Source: Natrinema salifodinae (lineage in GTDB: Archaea > Halobacteriota > Halobacteria > Halobacteriales > Natrialbaceae). From it: DNA of 64,000 bases. The notes under the pieces were generated by a model. The model searched no databases. It worked only from the letters and a program-made list of their open reading frames with translations, and had not been told where the DNA came from. The stretch spans positions 248,001-312,000 of the forward strand of contig NZ_FOIS01000001.1 of assembly GCF_900110455.1 (NCBI RefSeq). The letters are read 5' to 3'. The position numbers and the translations under genes were made by a program. Of the stretch, positions 20,009-63,960 are shown one piece after another. Within the stretch, counting starts at the first letter, position 1, and the number at the start of each line of letters is the position of its first letter.

Positions 20009-22462
20009 ATGCCTACTGACGGCGACTCGGGCCGGATCGCGGACGCGACGGCGTCGTTTCTCGAGGACCGGGACGACGGCGACCGCGCGCTCGAGGCCGT
20101 CCTCGCGGTCGATTCCGAGCACGAGACCTGGTCGTTCGACGACGTTTCGCTGGACTCGGGGACATTCGGCGAACTCGTCTCTCGCGGTATCGTCGAGAAC
20201 GCCGACGGCGGCTATCAGGTTGCGGACGCCGCCGTCGTCGAGGCGGTGGCGGCAGGTGAAGAACTCGAAGCAGACTCGGGCGGTTCCGATCTCGGGTTCG
20301 AACGGTTCCGGGAGGCCATCGATCGTCGCGCGCTGGCGGCGCTGCTCTGTTCGCTGGTCGTCGTCGCCGGGGCCCGGATGACCGCCTACCGATCGGTGTT
20401 CCAGCAGGGCTACGTCGTTTCGCCCGGGAACGATCCCTACTACTTTCGCTACTGGATGCGGGAACTCCTGGCGACCGCCTCGGGACCGACGGATTACGGC
20501 GTCGTGGGAGGGCCCTCGACCGGCGGCACCTGGACGCGACCGCTCGCACACGCGACGAACTGGTTTCTCGCCGAGTTGCTCGGCGGCGGAGAAGGGGCGG
20601 CCGAGACGGTCGCGGCCTGGTTACCCGTCGTCGCCTCCGTCGCGCTCGGACTCGTGATCTACGAGCTCGCCGTCTTGCTGACGCGGGACGTCCGCGTGGG
20701 GATCGCGTCCGTGCTCGTCTTCGCGGTGACGCCCGTCCACGCGGTCTATACGGGACTGGGCTTTCTGGACCACCAGCTCCACCAGTACGTCTGGCTCGGA
20801 ATCACGCTGGTAACACTCGCCTGGCTCGCCGTCGATCTCCAGCGCCGCATCGAACGCGGTGTCGATCGGCGGGTTGCCGTTCGGGCGCATCTCCGGACAC
20901 CGACGACGTGGGTCGTTGCGCTCGGGTTCGGGCTCTCGGTCGCGGCCGGGACCCACGCCTGGGGCGGCTCGCCGCTGCTGTTGGTGCCGCTGGCGGGATA
21001 CATCGCGGTCCGCGTCGCGATGGACGCTCGCGACGGCGTGTCGCCGGCGCGGGCGAACCTGCCGGTGCTCGCCGGCCTGGCCGTCGGGAGCGCGCTCTCG
21101 CTGGCCCTGCACCACCGCTGGGGGTGGCACGCGGAGTTCGTCGCGACCACGCCGGCGCTGGTCCTCGGCGGGGCCGTCGTCGTGACCGCGCTCGGCGAAC
21201 TGTGGCGGCGCCTGGACCGATCGGTCCACCACGGTGCCTTGCTCGCGCTCGACGGCCTGGTCGCGGCCGGCGGGCTGCTCCTCTTTCGGTGGGTGCGGCC
21301 CGAGGACTGGGCGGAAGCGATGGCCCGGCTCGACGACCTGTTCTTCCGCGAGGGGGCGACCGAGACGGCTTCGCTGTTCGCGACGGAGTACGCCGTCTTC
21401 TTCGGGCCGATGTACCAGCTCGGGATGGGATTCTACGTCGCGCTGGTCGTGTTCGGCTGGGTCGCCTGGCGCGTGTATCGGCAGTACGAACCCGGGTGGT
21501 TACTCGTCGGGACCTATACGGGGTACCTGCTCGTGCTCGCGGGGATCCAGGTTCGCTTCGCCGGGCAGTTGGCGATTCCGCTGGCCGTACTCACCGGGTT
21601 AGGGTTCGTGCAGTTGCTCGCGGTCGTCGACCTGGCGCGGACGCCAATGCCGTTCCGCGATGCGGACGCGGCTCTCGATGGCGGGTCTCGGGACGGTTCG
21701 GCGATCGTCTCCGACGGAGGCCGGGCGTCCGTGCCCGCGATTTCGCTTCCCGACGGGCGAGCGATCGGCTACCTGCTCGGAATCGGCCTGCTCGTGTTCG
21801 GCCTGAGTCTGATCTACGTGCCGGGACTGACGGGTGACGTGACACACGGCGACGGACAGGTCGCGGCGGCGAGCGCGATCGAGGACCACGCCGAGGCCGC
21901 GGACCGAACGTACCCGGAGACCTTCGTCTTGAGCGAGTGGGGCGACAACCGGATGTACAACCACTTCGTGAACGGCGAGTCCCAGGGTTACGGCTACGCT
22001 CAGAGCAATTACGGGGAGTTCCGGACCAGTTCCGATCCCGACGGCTGGTACGACCGGTTCGACGGGCGGGTCGGCTACGTCGTCGTGACCGATATCGACG
22101 GGGACCTGTCGGCCGACAGCGCACAGACGCGGTTGCTCGAGGACTACGGGACCGGCGGGGACGGGACGGACGGGCTCACGCACTACCAGGCGATCTTCGT
22201 CGGTGACGACGTCGCGGCGTTCGCGATCGTTCCGGGGGCGACCCTCGAAGTGAGCGGGACGCCTGGCGAGACCGTGACCGTCGAGACCGACGCGTCCGCG
22301 TCCGGGGAGTCGTTCACTTACGAGCGTGCGGTGGTCGTCGGAGACGACGGCCGGGCGACGGTGACGGTGCCCTACGCCGGCGACTACGCGGTCGGCGATC
22401 GGACGGCGACCGTCTCCGAGGCCGACGTCCTGAACGGCCAGTCGGTCTCGGTCGCGGTGTAA
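20009..22462 (+). CDS. AglB/STT3-like oligosaccharyltransferase paralogue
   Basis: An 817-residue membrane protein. Residues 1-100 are cytosolic and acidic and look winged-helix-like. About twelve to thirteen transmembrane helices follow (about 110-615), then an extracytoplasmic C-terminal domain with a beta-rich end. The first luminal loop has GNDPYYFRYW, whose Asp fits the STT3 metal-binding position. GLGFLDHQLHQY corresponds to the second acidic loop. The classic WWDYG acceptor-Asn motif is replaced by EWGDNRMYN (about 645). It probably transfers a lipid-linked glycan to protein, but the altered motif suggests a different acceptor or reduced activity. A partial second copy of its 3' end is at 26345. 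Confidence 0.85.
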   Translation: MPTDGDSGRIADATASFLEDRDDGDRALEAVLAVDSEHETWSFDDVSLDSGTFGELVSRGIVENADGGYQVADAAVVEAVAAGEELEADSGGSDLGFERFREAIDRRALAALLCSLVVVAGARMTAYRSVFQQGYVVSPGNDPYYFRYWMRELLATASGPTDYGVVGGPSTGGTWTRPLAHATNWFLAELLGGGEGAAETVAAWLPVVASVALGLVIYELAVLLTRDVRVGIASVLVFAVTPVHAVYTGLGFLDHQLHQYVWLGITLVTLAWLAVDLQRRIERGVDRRVAVRAHLRTPTTWVVALGFGLSVAAGTHAWGGSPLLLVPLAGYIAVRVAMDARDGVSPARANLPVLAGLAVGSALSLALHHRWGWHAEFVATTPALVLGGAVVVTALGELWRRLDRSVHHGALLALDGLVAAGGLLLFRWVRPEDWAEAMARLDDLFFREGATETASLFATEYAVFFGPMYQLGMGFYVALVVFGWVAWRVYRQYEPGWLLVGTYTGYLLVLAGIQVRFAGQLAIPLAVLTGLGFVQLLAVVDLARTPMPFRDADAALDGGSRDGSAIVSDGGRASVPAISLPDGRAIGYLLGIGLLVFGLSLIYVPGLTGDVTHGDGQVAAASAIEDHAEAADRTYPETFVLSEWGDNRMYNHFVNGESQGYGYAQSNYGEFRTSSDPDGWYDRFDGRVGYVVVTDIDGDLSADSAQTRLLEDYGTGGDGTDGLTHYQAIFVGDDVAAFAIVPGATLEVSGTPGETVTVETDASASGESFTYERAVVVGDDGRATVTVPYAGDYAVGDRTATVSEADVLNGQSVSVAV

Positions 22463-22479
22463 GCCGCGCCCTCTCGGTC

Positions 22480-22720
22480 TCGACCGATCGTCGCCGTCAC
22501 TCGAACGCGTCCGGGACGGGCCCGAGCAGTGCTGTCGTTCCGGGCGACGATCGTCGGCACGCGCGGGTCGATGGACAAGAAACCGCGCGCTGCATCGGTC
22601 TCGGCTCGATTTCCCGCACGCGGCGCTCGTACTCTCTCGTCGATGGGGGGTCGAGATCGCCGTCCAGCTCGAACTACGCGAGTAGCCAGCTCGCTAGGCG
22701 ATCCGATGGATTCGTGGTGA
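22480..22720 (-). pseudogene. Decayed copy of the 26512 gene family
   Basis: Read on the minus strand, this stretch aligns by eye with the gene at 26512-27039. Shared landmarks are the RAE(A/T)DAAR segment, DPR and the final region before the stop (gcgttcga, gacggcga). The frame is broken by small indels and the 5' third is missing. It lies tail-to-tail behind the AglB-like gene exactly as the intact copy lies behind the AglB remnant at 26345. I infer an ancestral AglB-plus-convergent-gene module that was duplicated. Confidence 0.7.
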
Positions 22721-22816
22721 GACGTCGTCGTACTCACCGCGACGAGTGCCGTTCGGTCACGTCACAGTTGTTGATCCCTCTCGGAACACCCGATCGTTCC
22801 GATCGGGCACGACTCA

Positions 22817-23218
22817 CTAGAACAAGCCGCGACTCCCTGCGGAGTCAGCACCGTCCATCGCACCGACTGCGGATTCGATCGTTCCCTGCAGATCGTCGAT
22901 TGCGCCGGTCTCGACGGCAGCGACGACCCCCTTCTGTTGATTCTTGATGAGGTGTACCTCTATCGCCTTCTCGAAGCATCGCAAGACGCACTGCAACTCG
23001 CCGTGAACGTACAGCGATTCCTGGTGATCCTGATCGATCGCTTCGAGCCGGGCCTCTCGAAAGACGTTCTCCAGATCCGCAGCGTCGTACTCGGCTTCGA
23101 TATCCTCCCGGATATACACGTGGTCGTTGTCTCCTTCGTCGTAGTAGCCGACGCTTCGGAGGTCATCACCGAATCTGGACGCAAGCTGGTCGCGAACCCG
23201 CTCAGCTTCGAGTATCAT
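22817..23218 (-). CDS. Conserved haloarchaeal protein (DUF7522-like)
   Basis: A 133-residue soluble protein: MILEAERVRDQLASRFGDDL, then RSVGYYDEGDNDHVYIREDI and ESLYVHGELQCVLRCFEKAI. The layout (N-terminal helix, YYDEGD...YIR strand pair, later GxLxCxLRxFE) resembles small haloarchaeal proteins I recall as DUF7522; that assignment is tentative. The function is unknown. A clear TATA (cttataat on the minus strand, about 23240-23248) lies about 27 bases before the ATG. Confidence 0.72.
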   Translation of the reverse strand: MILEAERVRDQLASRFGDDLRSVGYYDEGDNDHVYIREDIEAEYDAADLENVFREARLEAIDQDHQESLYVHGELQCVLRCFEKAIEVHLIKNQQKGVVAAVETGAIDDLQGTIESAVGAMDGADSAGSRGLF

Positions 23219-23224
23219 TGTGTG

Positions 23225-23960
23225 TGATCTGTCTTCTAACTATTATAAGGATAGGGGCCAGACGCCGTACTTGCCGTTATTGAGACGCCCTAGCAGCGCA
23301 TCGCAGGGACAGCGAAACGAAGTGACCTGGTCATTTGCTCGCCCAACTTCCGACAGTAGCTCGTCGACATACTGCTCTTCCGCCTTGCGACGCGTTCCGA
23401 TCGCGGCGTAACAGCGTGATCGCGTCAAAGTTCGTCCAGCCGCGGGCGACTGGGCGGCGGCCGTCTTCGGGAAGCCCGGTTGCGACCGACACCGGCGTAG
23501 AGGGTCACCCGTAGATCGGCGTGGACTCCCGTCCGGCCACCGGATTCGACGACGCGCTCGGACCGGCACCGCAGCGCACCGCGACTCCGACTCGGCCGAT
23601 CGCGCTGACCGACACCATCGTGCTCCCTGCGGCCAGAACGATCAAGTCGATGGCGGCAACATCTTCGGCCGGTCGACCCGAGATCGGGAGTCCGTGGTCG
23701 GCCTCTCAGGGAATCGCAGGGAATCCGACCGCCACCCTCCGTCCACGACGGAGTCATTCTACTCGCGGTCGCTCGCCAGGCGGAGCCCGGGCGTGTTGCG
23801 GTCGGTTCTCGAGTTTCGTCTTCGAACGTCGAATCCATCTGGATGTTCGAGCGGATGGGTTTAGCGTTGGATTTGTCGATCTCTCCGTCCGGGTCTTCGG
23901 AGGTAGAATAGAGTGCTTCGATCGTCCGCCGTCTCCGACTGCCAAGGCGAGTGGGTCCGC
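23225..23960. other. Gene-poor stretch, probably decayed coding DNA
   Basis: About 735 bases have open frames that are Arg/Ser/Pro-rich on both strands. One minus-strand frame has a plausible acidic start (MDSTFEDETREP at 23838) but becomes arginine-rich. Another has a single hydrophobic run (about 23600-23660, minus). The stretch directly follows the truncated 7TM sensor on the minus strand, so it may contain the ruined kinase part; I could not identify PAS or ATPase motifs. Confidence 0.4.
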
Positions 23961-23963
23961 GCG

Positions 23964-24695
23964 TTACGGGAGTTCAACGATCTCCAAATACGATCGACAC
24001 TTTGCGAACAGGCAGCCGCGATTCGCTTGTAGCCATCCGACCGTCGTGAGAGCGGCAGCAGCAAGCGGTGCGACCGTCATCCCACCGGGATACACGAGAT
24101 TGCTTCCGACGAGAGCCACTATCGTACTGATGCCGCCGACCATGTAAGCGCCGGTGTATCGGGTGCTGATCCCGGATTTCCAGGCTTCGGCAAACAGGGT
24201 CGTCCCCGCGCTGAACAAGACGATGAGGAACACCGTTTGCAGCCAGTACAGCGGTTTCGGGGTGATTTCAGCGAACGCGGGAAAAGCCGTCGTCTCGGCT
24301 AACGCAACCCAGTACAGTTCGTGTGCAGGGGACGTGATGACGAGAAAGATGTTGATTCCCACAAAGACGGCACTTATTCCGTAGATCAGCTGGTGATTCG
24401 GAACGGTCGTCGTACTGCTGGCAGTTCCGGCAAACAGAAACCAACCGAGCCCGGCCAACGAGGCGCCGACGATACTCAGCGAGAGAAAGAATCCTTTGAC
24501 GAGCGGATCTTGATCCAACAGTTGCGCAGCGAACATCGCGTTCCAAATACCGACACCCATCACGAGAAGAATATATGCAAGCCCGTTATCACTTCCGCGA
24601 TATGCGATCGCCGTTGCGGTGTAGGGGTAGATCGAGAGAGCAACGAGAACCGCTCCCGAAGCGAGTACCCACGGTATCCAGTGAATCGTGTTCAT
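23964..24695 (-). CDS. 7TM sensor domain protein, kinase part missing
   Basis: A 243-residue protein made of seven predicted helices (about 8-30, 38-58, 67-88, 100-122, 132-150, 155-180 and 190-225). It resembles the N-terminal 7TM region of haloarchaeal sensor histidine kinases (HisKA_7TM): ALSIYPYTATAIAYRGSD, LSIVGASLAGLGWFLF and GINIFLVITSPAHELYW. In such kinases a PAS and a histidine kinase/ATPase module follow. Here the frame stops shortly after the last helix (RGCLFAKCRSYLEIVELP). It is either a truncated kinase or a stand-alone sensor. A TATA-like aaaatacaa about 30 bases upstream supports the start. Confidence 0.7.
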   Translation of the reverse strand: MNTIHWIPWVLASGAVLVALSIYPYTATAIAYRGSDNGLAYILLVMGVGIWNAMFAAQLLDQDPLVKGFFLSLSIVGASLAGLGWFLFAGTASSTTTVPNHQLIYGISAVFVGINIFLVITSPAHELYWVALAETTAFPAFAEITPKPLYWLQTVFLIVLFSAGTTLFAEAWKSGISTRYTGAYMVGGISTIVALVGSNLVYPGGMTVAPLAAAALTTVGWLQANRGCLFAKCRSYLEIVELP

Positions 24696-25411
24696 AACTG
24701 TGGTGAACAGTCGTCCAACTTGTATTTTCCTCTTTTCCGAACTACTGCGACGGCAACGGTGATGGTCGCCCGATAGCGAGTCGATACGAGCTCATACTCC
24801 CGCTGTGGCTCTTTGTTATATACTGTCAATTTCTCCGAAGTGATTTTTAGGCTACTGGTTTGAGACTGTGATCGCTACTGCAAGAGGTAGCTTCGTTTGG
24901 GTGGGATACGATGTTACCAGGTAGCGGAATGTAGTGTCAAAACTATGATTGCAAACACACAATCGATGAGAAGGATCTCTGGTCAAAATACGCGGTTATG
25001 CGACGATGGTGATTGATGTCATATCACGATGATTTCATCGCGTTGTCGGTGCGCGCGAACTATCTCTCGGTGATGAGTCCGCCCAAATTTATTGGTAGTG
25101 TCATGTAGGAATACAGTAGTGTATTCGCGCCGATTGAGCCGGCAAACGGAAAATCGCCAGACGGCGCCGCTTCAAGACGCCGCTGTAAGCGTTCTGCGGG
25201 GCGCTGATTATCAATACTGAAAGCCTTGTCAGAAAGAACGAGTTTCACTATCCACTAAGTATATATGGGGCGGGTTCCCTCGGATAATTAGCATCGGACA
25301 ACACGGTGAGAAAGCAGGGACGATGTGGTAACCACATCCCGCTGACCGCACTCATCGATTGATAGAGACGTTAGATAAGCTTTCCCACTGTTCGCCGATG
25401 CGTGAGAACAA
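24696..25411. other. AT-rich intergenic stretch, no gene recognised
   Basis: About 715 bases lie between the 7TM gene and the pilin, with lower GC than the flanks. A minus-strand frame (25060-25248, MKLVLSDKAFSIDNQRPAER) has no recognisable family, and the strong TATA-like sequence near 25258 lies too close to its GTG. It may be remnant mobile or coding DNA. The pilin promoter (tagataag, about 25372-25379) is at the right-hand end. Confidence 0.4.
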
Positions 25412-25831
25412 ATGATCGACGGAAAAGCAGTCCAACGGAAGTTAGTCGGATCGGACGATGAACGGGCAGTCTCCCCCGTGATCGGGGTTATTCTTATGGT
25501 CGCTATCACAGTCATCCTCGCAGCTGTGATCGCCGCTTTCGTGCTCGATATGGGGAGCAGCCAGAGTCAGAACGCGCAGGCAGGTGTCAGTTTTGACGAA
25601 GAAAGTGATGTTGTCACTGTTTCAGTGACCTCGATGGATCGTGCTGAGAGTCTCGAAATCCAGTCTGGTGCTTGTGATAGTCCAGATTATAATAGTGGTA
25701 GTGCACTTGAGGGTGTTGGCGAAACGGCTACAGTCGACTGTAACTCTGCTGGAGACTCGACTACAATTCAAGTTATCGGGGAGTACGATGGCAGTGAGAA
25801 CGTAATTACCACCTACGACTACGAGCCATAA
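25412..25831 (+). CDS. Type IV pilin
   Basis: A 139-residue pilin. The short positively charged leader (MIDGKAVQRKLVGSDDER) is followed by AVSPVIGVILMVAITVILAA. That is the haloarchaeal class III signal peptide, cleaved by PibD, and the hydrophobic assembly helix. The mature domain is small, beta-rich and acidic, with two Cys that could pair. It should form an adhesion pilus outside the cell. No pilus ATPase or platform gene is adjacent, so it is a lone pilin, as is common in haloarchaea. A TATA-like tagataag lies about 33-40 bases before the ATG. Confidence 0.9.
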   Translation: MIDGKAVQRKLVGSDDERAVSPVIGVILMVAITVILAAVIAAFVLDMGSSQSQNAQAGVSFDEESDVVTVSVTSMDRAESLEIQSGACDSPDYNSGSALEGVGETATVDCNSAGDSTTIQVIGEYDGSENVITTYDYEP

Positions 25832-26344
25832 GCACGTCTCTGACCACCTTCTTCTGTCACAAATCACTTCATTTACTTTCATCGTAGTAGATAGTCGCTC
25901 TTAAGTCCCAGCCTGACAGGCGACGTGATTAGGGGTATTATTTCATGTAAGTCGCACACCTGGTGCGCCGGCATCCCGATCGGGATCGCGCTGCTCAGTG
26001 TGGGCTGACGGCGTAGAATAGCTACCTTGCAATGGATTCGGAGCAAGTGGCCAGGCGTTTGCTAGACATCGTATAAGGAAGAAAGTATAGTAATTTCTTC
26101 TGATATCGGAATACTATTACTGCTCGTAGGCACGTATCAATGTCCGACCGCCAACATCGTCGAGAAATGGTGATACCTGGCCAGTGCACTGGCCAGGGAT
26201 GAGTGGCTGAATGACCACAACGATCTGTGTGCGTAGTCCACGAAAAATACTGTGTCGCCCCGGACGCGGTATTAGTGAGTCTACCACTAGATTACAGCAA
26301 TGACACCGCCCTCTTCACGTAATTACGCGGTGCATTCGAGGGCG
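25832..26344. other. Gene-poor stretch containing a 22-bp palindrome
   Basis: About 510 bases hold no supportable gene. A short plus-strand run near 25955 encodes a hydrophobic scrap (IPIGIALLSVG) that looks like debris. The only notable element is the perfect palindrome at 26176-26197. Confidence 0.45.
26176..26197. repeat. Perfect 22-bp palindrome
   Basis: The 11-base arm cctggccagtg is followed directly by its exact complement cactggccagg, with no spacer. Flanking bases do not pair. It lies in debris about 150 bases before the AglB remnant. It could be a dimeric-protein binding site or a recombination scar. Confidence 0.8.
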
Positions 26345-26490
26345 TGGCTGAGGTGCGGGGTCGTCGGGACGATAACCGAGGAAACAGTGAGAGACCCCTA
26401 CGCCGGTAGCTACGCGGTTGGCGCTCGGATGGCGGCCATCACCGAGGACGACGTCATGATCGGGCAGTCGGTCGCACTTGAGCGTACGCC
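26345..26490 (+). pseudogene. 3'-terminal remnant of a second AglB-like gene
   Basis: The frame here contains DPYAGSYAVGARMAAITEDD and then VMIGQSVALE. This aligns with the end of the intact AglB-like protein (PYAGDYAVGDRTATVSEADV, LNGQSVSVAV). Nucleotide similarity appears to begin near 26345 (ggtgcgg.ggtcgtcgg) and continues past the stop into the convergent gene. Nothing of the transmembrane part remains, so it is a truncated pseudogene. Confidence 0.75.
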
Positions 26491-26511
26491 GCGCCCGACT
26501 CTCCGTCGCCG

Positions 26512-27039
26512 CTAGTCGTTCTCGTCTGATCGCCGTCGCTCGAACGCATCTGGTTCTGGTCCGCGGTGTGAGGTCGTTCCGGGTCCTCGGTCGACGACCA
26601 TCGGTACATCAGCGTTCTCCGGGCGCGGATCGACGGGCAACAGGACGCGCGCGGCGTCCGCCTCGGCTCTGATCTCGCGCACGTGACGTTTGCACTGCCT
26701 AGTCGATTCGGAATCGAGGTCGTTGTCTCGCTCGAGTTTGGTGAGTAGTCGGCAGACCAGGCGATCGATCCGCGCGAGGGTCACGCGGTAGATGGCCACG
26801 GGATCGTCGGCCTGGTCAATCGATGACTGCAGGGAGCTGGCCTGATTAGATAATGACGCCGGCGCGTCCGGCAGTTGGCCGTTAAACCGAGTTTGGCTTT
26901 CTCTCGATGCATACGATCGGTCGGGATTTTCAAGGTCCCGTAACTCATCGTCACACATGGCTTCCGTGGTGAAGACGGGAGCTGCCGCGGGTTCGGTGGG
27001 GCAAGCACCGGCCCGCTGATTTTCTGTACTCGCGATCAT
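26512..27039 (-). CDS. Haloarchaeal paralogue-family protein, function unknown (intact copy)
   Basis: A 175-residue soluble acidic protein starting MIASTENQRAGAC. A helical core (YRVTLARIDRLVCRLLTKLE, then CKRHVREIRAEADAARVLLP) is followed by a polar tail VPMVVDRGPGTTSHRGPEPDAFERRRSDEND-like end. The 63436 gene (174 residues) shares RHLREIRAEA and the RGxG...GPxPxAFE tail, and a decayed copy is at 22480. The ATG at 27039 is preferred to 27084, because it matches the length of the paralogue and lies about 30 bases after a catataga TATA. No known domain is recognised. The arrangement behind AglB-like tails suggests an envelope link, as inference only. Confidence 0.7.
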   Translation of the reverse strand: MIASTENQRAGACPTEPAAAPVFTTEAMCDDELRDLENPDRSYASRESQTRFNGQLPDAPASLSNQASSLQSSIDQADDPVAIYRVTLARIDRLVCRLLTKLERDNDLDSESTRQCKRHVREIRAEADAARVLLPVDPRPENADVPMVVDRGPGTTSHRGPEPDAFERRRSDEND

Positions 27040-27098
27040 CAGCTCAGTGTCGCTCCCGTATCTAGTTCTATATGTTCTGTTCACTTATATCTCTAGCA

Positions 27099-61769: not shown

Positions 61770-62537
61770 TCAGTCTCGCATCCGAACGATCCCGTCCTCG
61801 AAGACCTTCCGGTTCGGCACGATGTACTCCTCCGAATCGTCCTCGATCTTCGTGACGAACAGATCGACCTCCTGAACGATCCCGGTCTGCTCGCCGATTC
61901 GGACCTGGTCGCCGATCCCGTAGGGCTGGTTGAGCAGGAGGTAGATCCCCGCCGCGCTCGAGACGAGGAAATCCTTGAAGGCGACGGTGCCGACGATGAC
62001 GACGCCGACGGCGTACACCGTCAGCAGGATTAGCAGCGCCAGGACGTGGACGCCGATCTGGCCCAGGGCGATGATGAAGGTGACGTAGAGGACGGAGTAC
62101 TTGACCACCTTCGGGAGCAAGGAGACCTCGGGGAGTTTGACCCCGCGTAAGTACTCGCTGACGATCAGCTCCGACTTGTCCGCGACGATGAACCCGAGGA
62201 TGAGCACTAAGACGGCGATGAACAGCTGTGGGATGAACTCCGTGACCCGCAGCCAGAAGGCGTCCGTGTCCAGCAGCTGCGCGATGTGGATCGCGGTCAG
62301 GACCGCGATGCCGTAGATGAACCACGAACTCAGCCGCGCGACGATCTCGACCGTCGAGGTGCCGATCGACTGGGCCGTCCGCTCGAACGGCGTCCCTTCG
62401 ACGGCCCCGGGCACGCCCGAGGCGGCCAGCAACTCCTCGTTGAGCCGGCCGACGAGATAGCCGACCACGAGTCCGAGCGCCAGTACCGCCGCCGCGATGA
62501 CGGCCGGCTCGTTGACGAACGACTGCCAGTTGACCAT
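61770..62537 (-). CDS. MscS-like mechanosensitive channel
   Basis: A 255-residue protein with about four transmembrane helices (about 12-30, 65-90, 98-118 and 140-185). An MscS beta-domain segment follows the pore helix (VGTVAFKDFLVSSAAGIYLL; GIGDQVRIGEQTGIVQEVDL; EEYIVPNRKVFEDGIV). It should gate under membrane tension, relevant to osmotic shock. It starts one base after the dacZ stop in the same operon; c-di-AMP is a known osmolyte-control signal, so a functional link is likely though not shown. Confidence 0.9.
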   Translation of the reverse strand: MVNWQSFVNEPAVIAAAVLALGLVVGYLVGRLNEELLAASGVPGAVEGTPFERTAQSIGTSTVEIVARLSSWFIYGIAVLTAIHIAQLLDTDAFWLRVTEFIPQLFIAVLVLILGFIVADKSELIVSEYLRGVKLPEVSLLPKVVKYSVLYVTFIIALGQIGVHVLALLILLTVYAVGVVIVGTVAFKDFLVSSAAGIYLLLNQPYGIGDQVRIGEQTGIVQEVDLFVTKIEDDSEEYIVPNRKVFEDGIVRMRD

Positions 62538-62538
62538 A

Positions 62539-63351
62539 TCAGTACGCCTCCGGATCGACCTCCAGAATGAGCTCTCCGGCCTTGAACGCCCGGACGAGTC
62601 CGTCGCTCTCGGAGAGAACGATCGAAATCGCATTGGTGTCCCGCGTGATCGCGGCGCCGGACATGTGCCGCGCCCCCAGCCCCTTCGGAATGTCGATCCC
62701 CTCCGCGGACGGCTCGAGGTAGCGGTACGCCGAGACAATCTTGCCCGCGTCGGAGATGACGAACGCGCCGTCGAGCCGCGAGAATTCCTTGAGCATCACG
62801 TTCACGATCGGATCGCCGACGTGGACGTGAGACTTCTCGAAGGGGTTGTACGAGAGGGGCCGAGACTTGTTCATCACCTTCCCCGCGTCGCCGACGACGA
62901 ACAGCGCGCCCACGGGCTTGCCCTTCTGTCCCTTCTGGCCCAACTCGATCGCCAGTTCGAGGACCGCCTTGGTCACCTCCGAGTCGGCCCGGGACTTGAC
63001 GAACATGTCGTAGATCCCCGTGTGGGTCTCCGCGTCCGCCCGGACGCGCGAGACGGTATCGATCCCGTCTCCGAAGACGCTCGTCGCGCAGGCCAACTCG
63101 TCGCCGTCCTCGATCACTCCTTGTTCCAGCGCGCCTTCCAGGCCGAAGCGGATGCGCTCCGTGATGGCTTCGAATTCCAGGGGGAGTTCGACGAACGTCT
63201 CCGCGCCCACGGCGTTTTCCGTGCCGACGACGATCACATCGACGTCGTCGACCGACGCGAACTGTTCGTAGTAAGATCCGCTCGGCGAAAAGAGAACGAC
63301 TGCATCGATACTCGCAAAGAGTTCCCCGAAGACGTCGTCTAACCCGGCCAT
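62539..63351 (-). CDS. dacZ: Diadenylate cyclase DacZ (c-di-AMP synthase)
   Basis: A 270-residue protein with a pyruvate-kinase-like N-terminal domain (about 1-125) and a C-terminal DisA-N (DAC) domain (about 130-260). The catalytic motifs are LDGAFVISDAGK (DGA at 194-196) and GARHMSGAAIT (RH at 228-229). DacZ joins two ATP to c-di-AMP; in Haloferax volcanii it is important for osmotic control. It is first of a two-gene operon with the MscS-like channel. Confidence 0.94.
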   Translation of the reverse strand: MAGLDDVFGELFASIDAVVLFSPSGSYYEQFASVDDVDVIVVGTENAVGAETFVELPLEFEAITERIRFGLEGALEQGVIEDGDELACATSVFGDGIDTVSRVRADAETHTGIYDMFVKSRADSEVTKAVLELAIELGQKGQKGKPVGALFVVGDAGKVMNKSRPLSYNPFEKSHVHVGDPIVNVMLKEFSRLDGAFVISDAGKIVSAYRYLEPSAEGIDIPKGLGARHMSGAAITRDTNAISIVLSESDGLVRAFKAGELILEVDPEAY

Positions 63352-63435: not shown

Positions 63436-63960
63436 TCAATTATCTGTCACTGACTCGTCGGTCGGCTCGGAGTCCGTCCCGTCGCGGTCGCCATACTCGC
63501 GTTCGAAAGCGATCGGATCGGGGCCGAGAACCGTCGTGACGCCACCGCCGCGGCGACGGATCATCGGGACGCCCCCGCGGTCGGGATCAGACCCGGGCCC
63601 TTCGTCGCCACCGTCACCGTCGGCGCCCCGATCACCGTCCGTCCCGTCGGTCGGCCGCCTGGCGTCGCCCGCCGCGGACTCAGATTGCGCGAGTGCGCGG
63701 CCGGCCCACGCGGCTTCCGCGCGGATTTCGCGGAGGTGCCGAACCGCGTCGCGACGCGTCGCGGGTTCGAGGTCACCGTCGCGGGCGGCCTGGCGGACGG
63801 TCGCGAGGAGCGTCCGCGCCGTCGCGTCGATCGTCGCGAGCCGCACGCGGAAGGCGGGCCGGACCGCGTCGGAGCCGGACCCGTACGCTCGGACGATCGA
63901 GTCGGTCGATACGTCTCGTCGGTCGGGGCCTTCGAGACCCCGCGAATTGTCGTCTGACAT
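63436..63960 (-). CDS. Haloarchaeal paralogue-family protein, function unknown (second intact copy)
   Basis: A 174-residue soluble acidic protein: FRVRLATIDATARTLLATVR, RHLREIRAEAAWAGRAL, a Gly/Asp-rich low-complexity linker, then VPMIRRRGGGVTTVLGPDPI and AFEREYGD. It shares the HLREIRAEA helix and the tail with the 26512 gene and with the decayed copy at 22480. No known domain is recognised. It stands alone behind dacZ (84-base gap), without an AglB-like neighbour. Confidence 0.72.
   Translation of the reverse strand: MSDDNSRGLEGPDRRDVSTDSIVRAYGSGSDAVRPAFRVRLATIDATARTLLATVRQAARDGDLEPATRRDAVRHLREIRAEAAWAGRALAQSESAAGDARRPTDGTDGDRGADGDGGDEGPGSDPDRGGVPMIRRRGGGVTTVLGPDPIAFEREYGDRDGTDSEPTDESVTDN

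Follow-up and report, generated by a model that had tools for sequence, protein, structure and literature searches.

The window analysed here is a stretch of 64,000 nucleotides from the haloarchaeon Natrinema salifodinae (contig NZ_FOIS01000001.1, positions 248,001 to 312,000). An AglB-like gene is followed tail to tail by a broken copy of a convergent gene, called FAM throughout, and an intact FAM copy stands further along, tail to tail with a scrap of a second AglB-like gene (Table 1). A winged-helix gene is transcribed divergently from the intact FAM. Between the two, running through the FAM start codon into codon 18, lies a conserved element whose most likely role, judged from comparison of its sequences, is that of a bistable translational switch.

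Table 1. Features of the FAM locus and related features in the window
Feature	Position	Strand	Basis
AglB-like (STT3-type) gene, intact, 817 aa	20009..22462	+	Pfam AglB_L1, E 3.7e-7, above cut-off
FAM copy 1, C-terminal remnant with stops	22480..22724	-	sequence comparison
AglB 3' scrap (copy 2), stop codon lost	26333..26479	+	AglB residues 768-815, E 3.2e-5
FAM copy 2, intact, 148 aa	26512..26958	-	conserved starts and leader in relatives
Putative structured leader RNA element over the FAM start codon, ~170 nt	26905..27076	-	covariance model 128.3 bits, E 3e-35 (model seed includes this leader itself); covariation
Hairpin H3 in FAM codons 7-13 (CGGGA..UCCCG)	26922..26940	-	covariation; codon-level constraint
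S3 (ACGGAAGC), one base upstream of the AUG at 26958	26960..26967	-	alignment, complementarity
S2 (GCUCCCGU), predicted to pair with S1 (P1) or S3 (P4)	26975..26982	-	covariation, complementarity, folding
Hairpin P3 (H1), GCGGGCCGGUG..CACC..CCCGC	26989..27014	-	covariation
S1 (ACGGGAGC), 5' strand of long-range helix P1	27052..27059	-	covariation, complementarity, folding
TATA-like box (ATATAAG), ~31 nt upstream of S1	27084..27090	-	sequence
Divergent winged-helix (PhiH1-repressor-like) gene, 102 aa	27181..27489	+	weak Pfam helix-turn-helix (HTH) matches; homologue upstream of nearly every copy
Third FAM copy	63436..63960	-	leader 63907-64074, beyond the window end; winged-helix partner outside the window

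An earlier note on this DNA had recognised the second FAM copy as intact but had begun it at 27039; because starts and leader are conserved in relatives, Met 26958 ('MCDDELRD...') is the most likely start. The encoded protein has a conserved disordered N-terminus, a helical hairpin at residues 53-106 and a conserved C-terminal motif. AlphaFold2 modelled the hairpin confidently and residues 1-30 with low confidence, and no match above cut-off was found in Pfam or NCBIfam.

The divergent gene, which we take to resemble the PhiH1-repressor-like group, accompanied FAM in 25 of 26 full-length Natrinema copies, about 230 bp upstream, and likewise in the FAM copies fetched from other genera. Other elements showed the same linkage: a winged-helix gene lay upstream of 61 of 69, and in 27 of the 30 element loci taken from 20 genomes of other families. 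The constant partner of FAM is therefore this gene and not AglB.

Conservation and pairing in the putative leader element

Alignment of the intergenic regions revealed a strongly conserved stretch that reaches from the TATA-like box past the start codon as far as codon 18. The spacing between box and S1 was most often 30-32 nt among the leaders, and the AUG followed directly after S3 in a conserved placement. Helices P1, P3 and H3 were supported by 61 non-redundant leaders, in which 84.3% of pair cells held a standard pair, compared with 27-42% when partners were slid by 1-3 columns. Double-changed cells numbered 65 in these leaders and 24.6 ± 4.0 after shuffling; none of 500 shuffles reached 65. 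A covariance model of the element (R1) was then used on separately fetched loci and gave 75 further matches: 86.5% of their cells were paired, double changes numbered 141 against 50.9 ± 6.6 when shuffled, and all nine P1 pairs showed them. The element has, in riboswitch fashion, a conserved secondary structure with compensatory changes. Compared with Rfam 15 it gave three weak matches only (E 0.6 to 4.4), all far under gathering scores.

Constraint at the nucleotide level extended into the gene. Residues shared by divergent FAM proteins were written with the same codon in 80% of cases in codons 2-18, compared with 52% in the core and 51% in the C-terminal part, and in some elements the leader peptide differed while H3 persisted. 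The first 18 codons thus appear to be conserved more as nucleic acid than as peptide. Since H3 lies inside the coding region, this RNA-level constraint would surface as a conserved peptide on otherwise unrelated proteins, a warning for annotation, since in several protein groups the conservation of residues 1-18 is largely a side effect of the RNA fold.

S2 was complementary both to S1, near the predicted 5' end of the transcript, and to S3, just before the AUG. Complementarity of S1 with S2 scored 7.19 against 6.75 ± 0.04 with swapped partners, and that of S2 with S3 scored 6.68 against 6.42 ± 0.03. Seven leaders, mostly with PadR cargo, carried CTCGCGT in S2 instead of CTCCCGT; in most of them S1 and S3 had changed to match, replacing C-G by G-C at the same pair of both P1 and P4. 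Unconstrained minimum-energy folds of 157 elements contained P1 in 95 cases and P4 in 56. The window's own leader folded at -52.7 kcal/mol with P1 and at -49.9 kcal/mol with P4 forced, so the two states are close in energy. Mutually exclusive pairings able to gate expression were found, in silico, around a single shared strand.

Cargo, distribution and a viral copy

The element fronts unrelated genes: FAM, PadR-like regulators (Pfam PadR, E 9.8e-13), TnpB-derived proteins (PF07282, E 2.8e-9), zinc-ribbon proteins and proteins of no assigned kind. This cargo offers no clear metabolic hint. At three loci (L152 1501-2401, L193 and L195) TnpB-derived RuvC/TNB proteins followed the element, as fusions to the leader peptide or downstream of a leader peptide of 33 aa; they are possibly domesticated TnpB regulators. 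Although it lacks the cysteines, the C-terminal segment 'MVVDRGPGTTSHRGPEP' of FAM (window 26515-26600) resembled the latter half of 'AVVTRGPSTHVLSPCG' in the zinc-ribbon cargo (L321, L157), and FAM may be a degenerate relative.

At a presence threshold of E 1e-4 or better, 178 of the 391 haloarchaeal genomes sampled carried the element, and 53 of their 86 genera were represented. Natrinema held well over 100 elements in 25 of 29 genomes, often several copies each. Five strong elements and two weak ones were present in the source genome. The weak ones (L156 1501-1662 on contig C2, L157 1501-1677 on contig C4) belonged to another class, class B, with a short peptide 'MI.YILPGYKRP' overlapping a zinc-ribbon open reading frame, and no winged-helix gene was found near either.

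One copy lies in a virus. The Natrinema temperate pleolipovirus SNJ2 carries the element before orf3 (119 bits, E 2.6e-33; locus L353 2436-2614, NC_074646), beside a divergent transcriptional regulator (gp04) and a HicAB-annotated pair, in the order regulator, element, orf3, orf2, integrase. According to a review (PMC8371274), orf1, the integrase gene, shares an operon with orf2 and orf3, the two start sites of this operon might govern lysogeny, and Orf2 and Orf3 stimulate IntSNJ2 recombination. The sections of the published accounts of this operon that were available to us make no mention of a leader RNA. The window copy shares with SNJ2 the element and the kind of divergent regulator gene; its cargo, however, is FAM and not the MarR/PadR-like Orf3, and it has neither integrase nor orf2. 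Ten loci (L209, L210, L216, L218, L238, L239, L241, L242, L245 and L246) had a recurrent stretch downstream of the element that translates as '..SETMPECTLHHGKST..'; loci with this stretch also held an SNJ2-type integrase. Rather than coding for protein, the stretch may represent a second conserved RNA.

The module could have arisen in SNJ2-like temperate viruses and integrative elements related to them, as the region that controls their lysogeny and integration, with host copies as domesticated or decaying remnants. The SNJ2 gene order and operon fit such an origin, as do homologues of the SNJ2-type integrase, present in about 50 fetched loci, and the broken state of several FAM copies. However, none of the loci fetched for the source genome's FAM copies held an integrase homologue, the FAM, TnpB-like and second PadR classes occur in abundance with no integrase, and protein and RNA are both under constraint. 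We regard a viral origin as a real possibility that falls somewhat short of probable. It is a question of origin and is compatible with an RNA mechanism.

Translational switch or DNA operators

We hold with moderate confidence that the core of the locus is a two-layer control module, in which the winged-helix regulator would act on transcription and the leader switch on translation. Regulator and target gene would be transcribed divergently from their shared region of about 230 bp, with the winged-helix protein acting on the shared promoters and the target transcript probably starting a few nt before S1. In the cell the leader would be transcribed and fold as a three-way junction, with P1 (S1 paired with S2) closing P2 and P3. 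With P1 formed the start region would lie open and translation would be permitted, presumably the ON state; in the alternative, P4, S2 would pair with S3, which immediately precedes the AUG, and mask the start region. Some ligand, protein or condition would shift the balance between P1 and P4. A more specific version, a haloarchaeal riboswitch class that senses a small molecule or ion, gates translation as S2 exchanges partner strands across the start codon and is common to host regulators, TnpB-derived genes and temperate viruses, is tentative and on balance unlikely.

Several observations weigh against a switch. P4 showed double changes at one pair only and contains a conserved C.A mismatch, and S3 is a poor Shine-Dalgarno sequence. 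The window's own leader was not exceptionally stable (z -1.65). The alignment of the 75 further matches was fitted to the modelled structure and is biased towards it, and the shuffle and swap controls ignore the relatedness of the sequences. The confident pairs held 127 G.U against 103 A.C mismatches, barely more, so covariation alone leaves RNA and DNA inverted repeats undecided.

DNA operators are the chief rival. S1, S2 and S3 would be three copies, direct and inverted, of a DNA motif bound by the winged-helix repressor, P3 and H3 would be further palindromes, and the co-variation would reflect co-evolution of repressor and operator; there would be no RNA switch. The near-universal linkage to a winged-helix gene, the position of S1 near the predicted start site and a G.U count not clearly above that of A.C agree with this account, and the regulators fall into several subtypes, as do the S1, S2 and S3 sequences. 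However, the spacing between arms varies (P3 loop, P4 loop and P1 distance), which fits poorly with a dimer site of fixed geometry; P2 remains paired although its sequence is not conserved (mean z -2.0); and no winged-helix gene was found near 8 of the 69 elements, the two weak class-B elements of the source genome among them. These three observations favour RNA. H3 and its register to the AUG are moreover conserved inside the gene. Operators are, in our estimate, the unlikely account, and the translational switch remains preferred.

The AglB/FAM block and related systems

The earlier note had read the AglB and FAM copies as a duplicated two-gene module whose opposite members then decayed, and had concluded that both functions are needed, perhaps together. 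The nucleotide similarity it described through the stop region and spacer was confirmed by BLASTN: window 22326-22703 matched 26353-26766 at 284 of 417 positions (68%; pairwise E 6e-51), a match that takes in the AglB tail, the stop region, the spacer and FAM over its 3' two thirds. Searched against the whole window the pair gave E 3e-49 to 4e-49, with the next best match at 8e-9; genome-wide a strong match occurred at these two places only, the next having E 4e-5. A duplication at the locus is thus borne out. The intervening 3.6 kb holds genes for a DUF7522 protein, a seven-transmembrane (7TM) protein and a pilin.

The extent of the copies points to a smaller event than the one proposed. No N-terminus, leader element or winged-helix partner was found for FAM copy 1, and the AglB scrap has an open frame of about 146 nt; the duplicated unit is therefore only about 0.4 kb across the 3'-3' junction (AglB tail, spacer and 3' two thirds of FAM), not two whole genes. 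One tandem duplication, or insertion of a circle by a single crossover, with breakpoints inside both genes, suffices for the whole arrangement, and reciprocal decay is not required. Such an event keeps one full AglB and one full FAM automatically, so their retention says nothing of need. The copies were 67% identical over the aligned stretch and similarly distant from the N. altunense/pallidum/gari clade, and a tree of the copies and their relatives was a star of three lineages; with these distances about equal, duplication and acquisition from a relative are indistinguishable. We regard the AglB scrap and the broken FAM as incidental, the product of one short local duplication or insertion.

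The intact AglB-like protein scored 105 bits against TIGR04154, under the family's cut-off of 450 bits, and had homologues, mostly 69-77% identical, in 20 of 28 other Natrinema genomes. Tail-to-tail pairing with FAM elsewhere, as the earlier note anticipated, was found within Natrinema and not beyond it. A convergent FAM lay within 2.7 kb downstream of the AglB-like gene in 11 of these 20 loci (three within ~45 nt, four within ~0.5 kb, four at 2.2-2.5 kb) and was absent from the stretch read in the other nine. Among 64 FAM loci from other genera and named records, with flanks mostly of 1.5-8 kb, AglB was present in two only: one was N. ejinorense, itself a Natrinema, and in the other AglB and FAM lay 3.5 kb from each other in the same orientation. 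The neighbourhood is not conserved across genera in these flanks, and AglB is one of the sites beside which FAM occurs rather than its partner. A functional AglB and FAM module that lost opposite members because both are needed is very improbable: the duplication is real and convergent neighbours recur in Natrinema, but a single event accounts for the topology, nearly half of the Natrinema AglB loci lacked FAM in the stretch read, FAM usually lies elsewhere, and no tail-to-tail pair was seen outside the genus.

The third family member that had been reported at 63436 is real and adjoins genes for a diadenylate cyclase (DacZ) and an MscS-like channel (window 61770-63351); a fourth copy lies on contig C3. 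Another Natrinema genome carries an N-terminal AglB scrap upstream of its own AglB gene (L063, G017:C1:156005-156118), so partial duplications recur at the AglB locus. In N. gari (L095) FAM copies had tandemly duplicated starts and an N in the assembly, a repeat-prone site. In the spacer ahead of the window's AglB scrap, 28 nt (26173-26200) form a strong palindrome, matching their own reverse complement at 93%.

Among known systems, the element resembles riboswitches and other bistable mRNA leaders in its covarying junction fold in a predicted 5' leader and in the one strand common to two exclusive helices, one of them beside the start codon. Unlike them, it has no known ligand or Rfam match, reaches into the coding region, is widespread in haloarchaea and is coupled to a divergent winged-helix gene. 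The S15 ribosomal-protein leader of Halobacteria (PMC7247131) is likewise a structured haloarchaeal leader found by comparison, but it fronts ribosomal genes and the cargo of the element is different. The literature searched contained no description of a folded leader paired with PhiH1-repressor-like proteins, the group that the divergent gene is taken to resemble and that agrees with its weak Pfam HTH matches, and no comparable natural structured leader for haloarchaea; descriptions elsewhere may exist. The element probably represents a new family of bistable leaders that spans the start codon and occurs in archaea and in one archaeal virus.

The element stands in nearly half of the sampled haloarchaeal genomes, ahead of regulators and viral integration genes. 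It offers a way to test how temperate viruses of haloarchaea commit to integration, and whether bistable leaders let archaea gate translation without a Shine-Dalgarno sequence.

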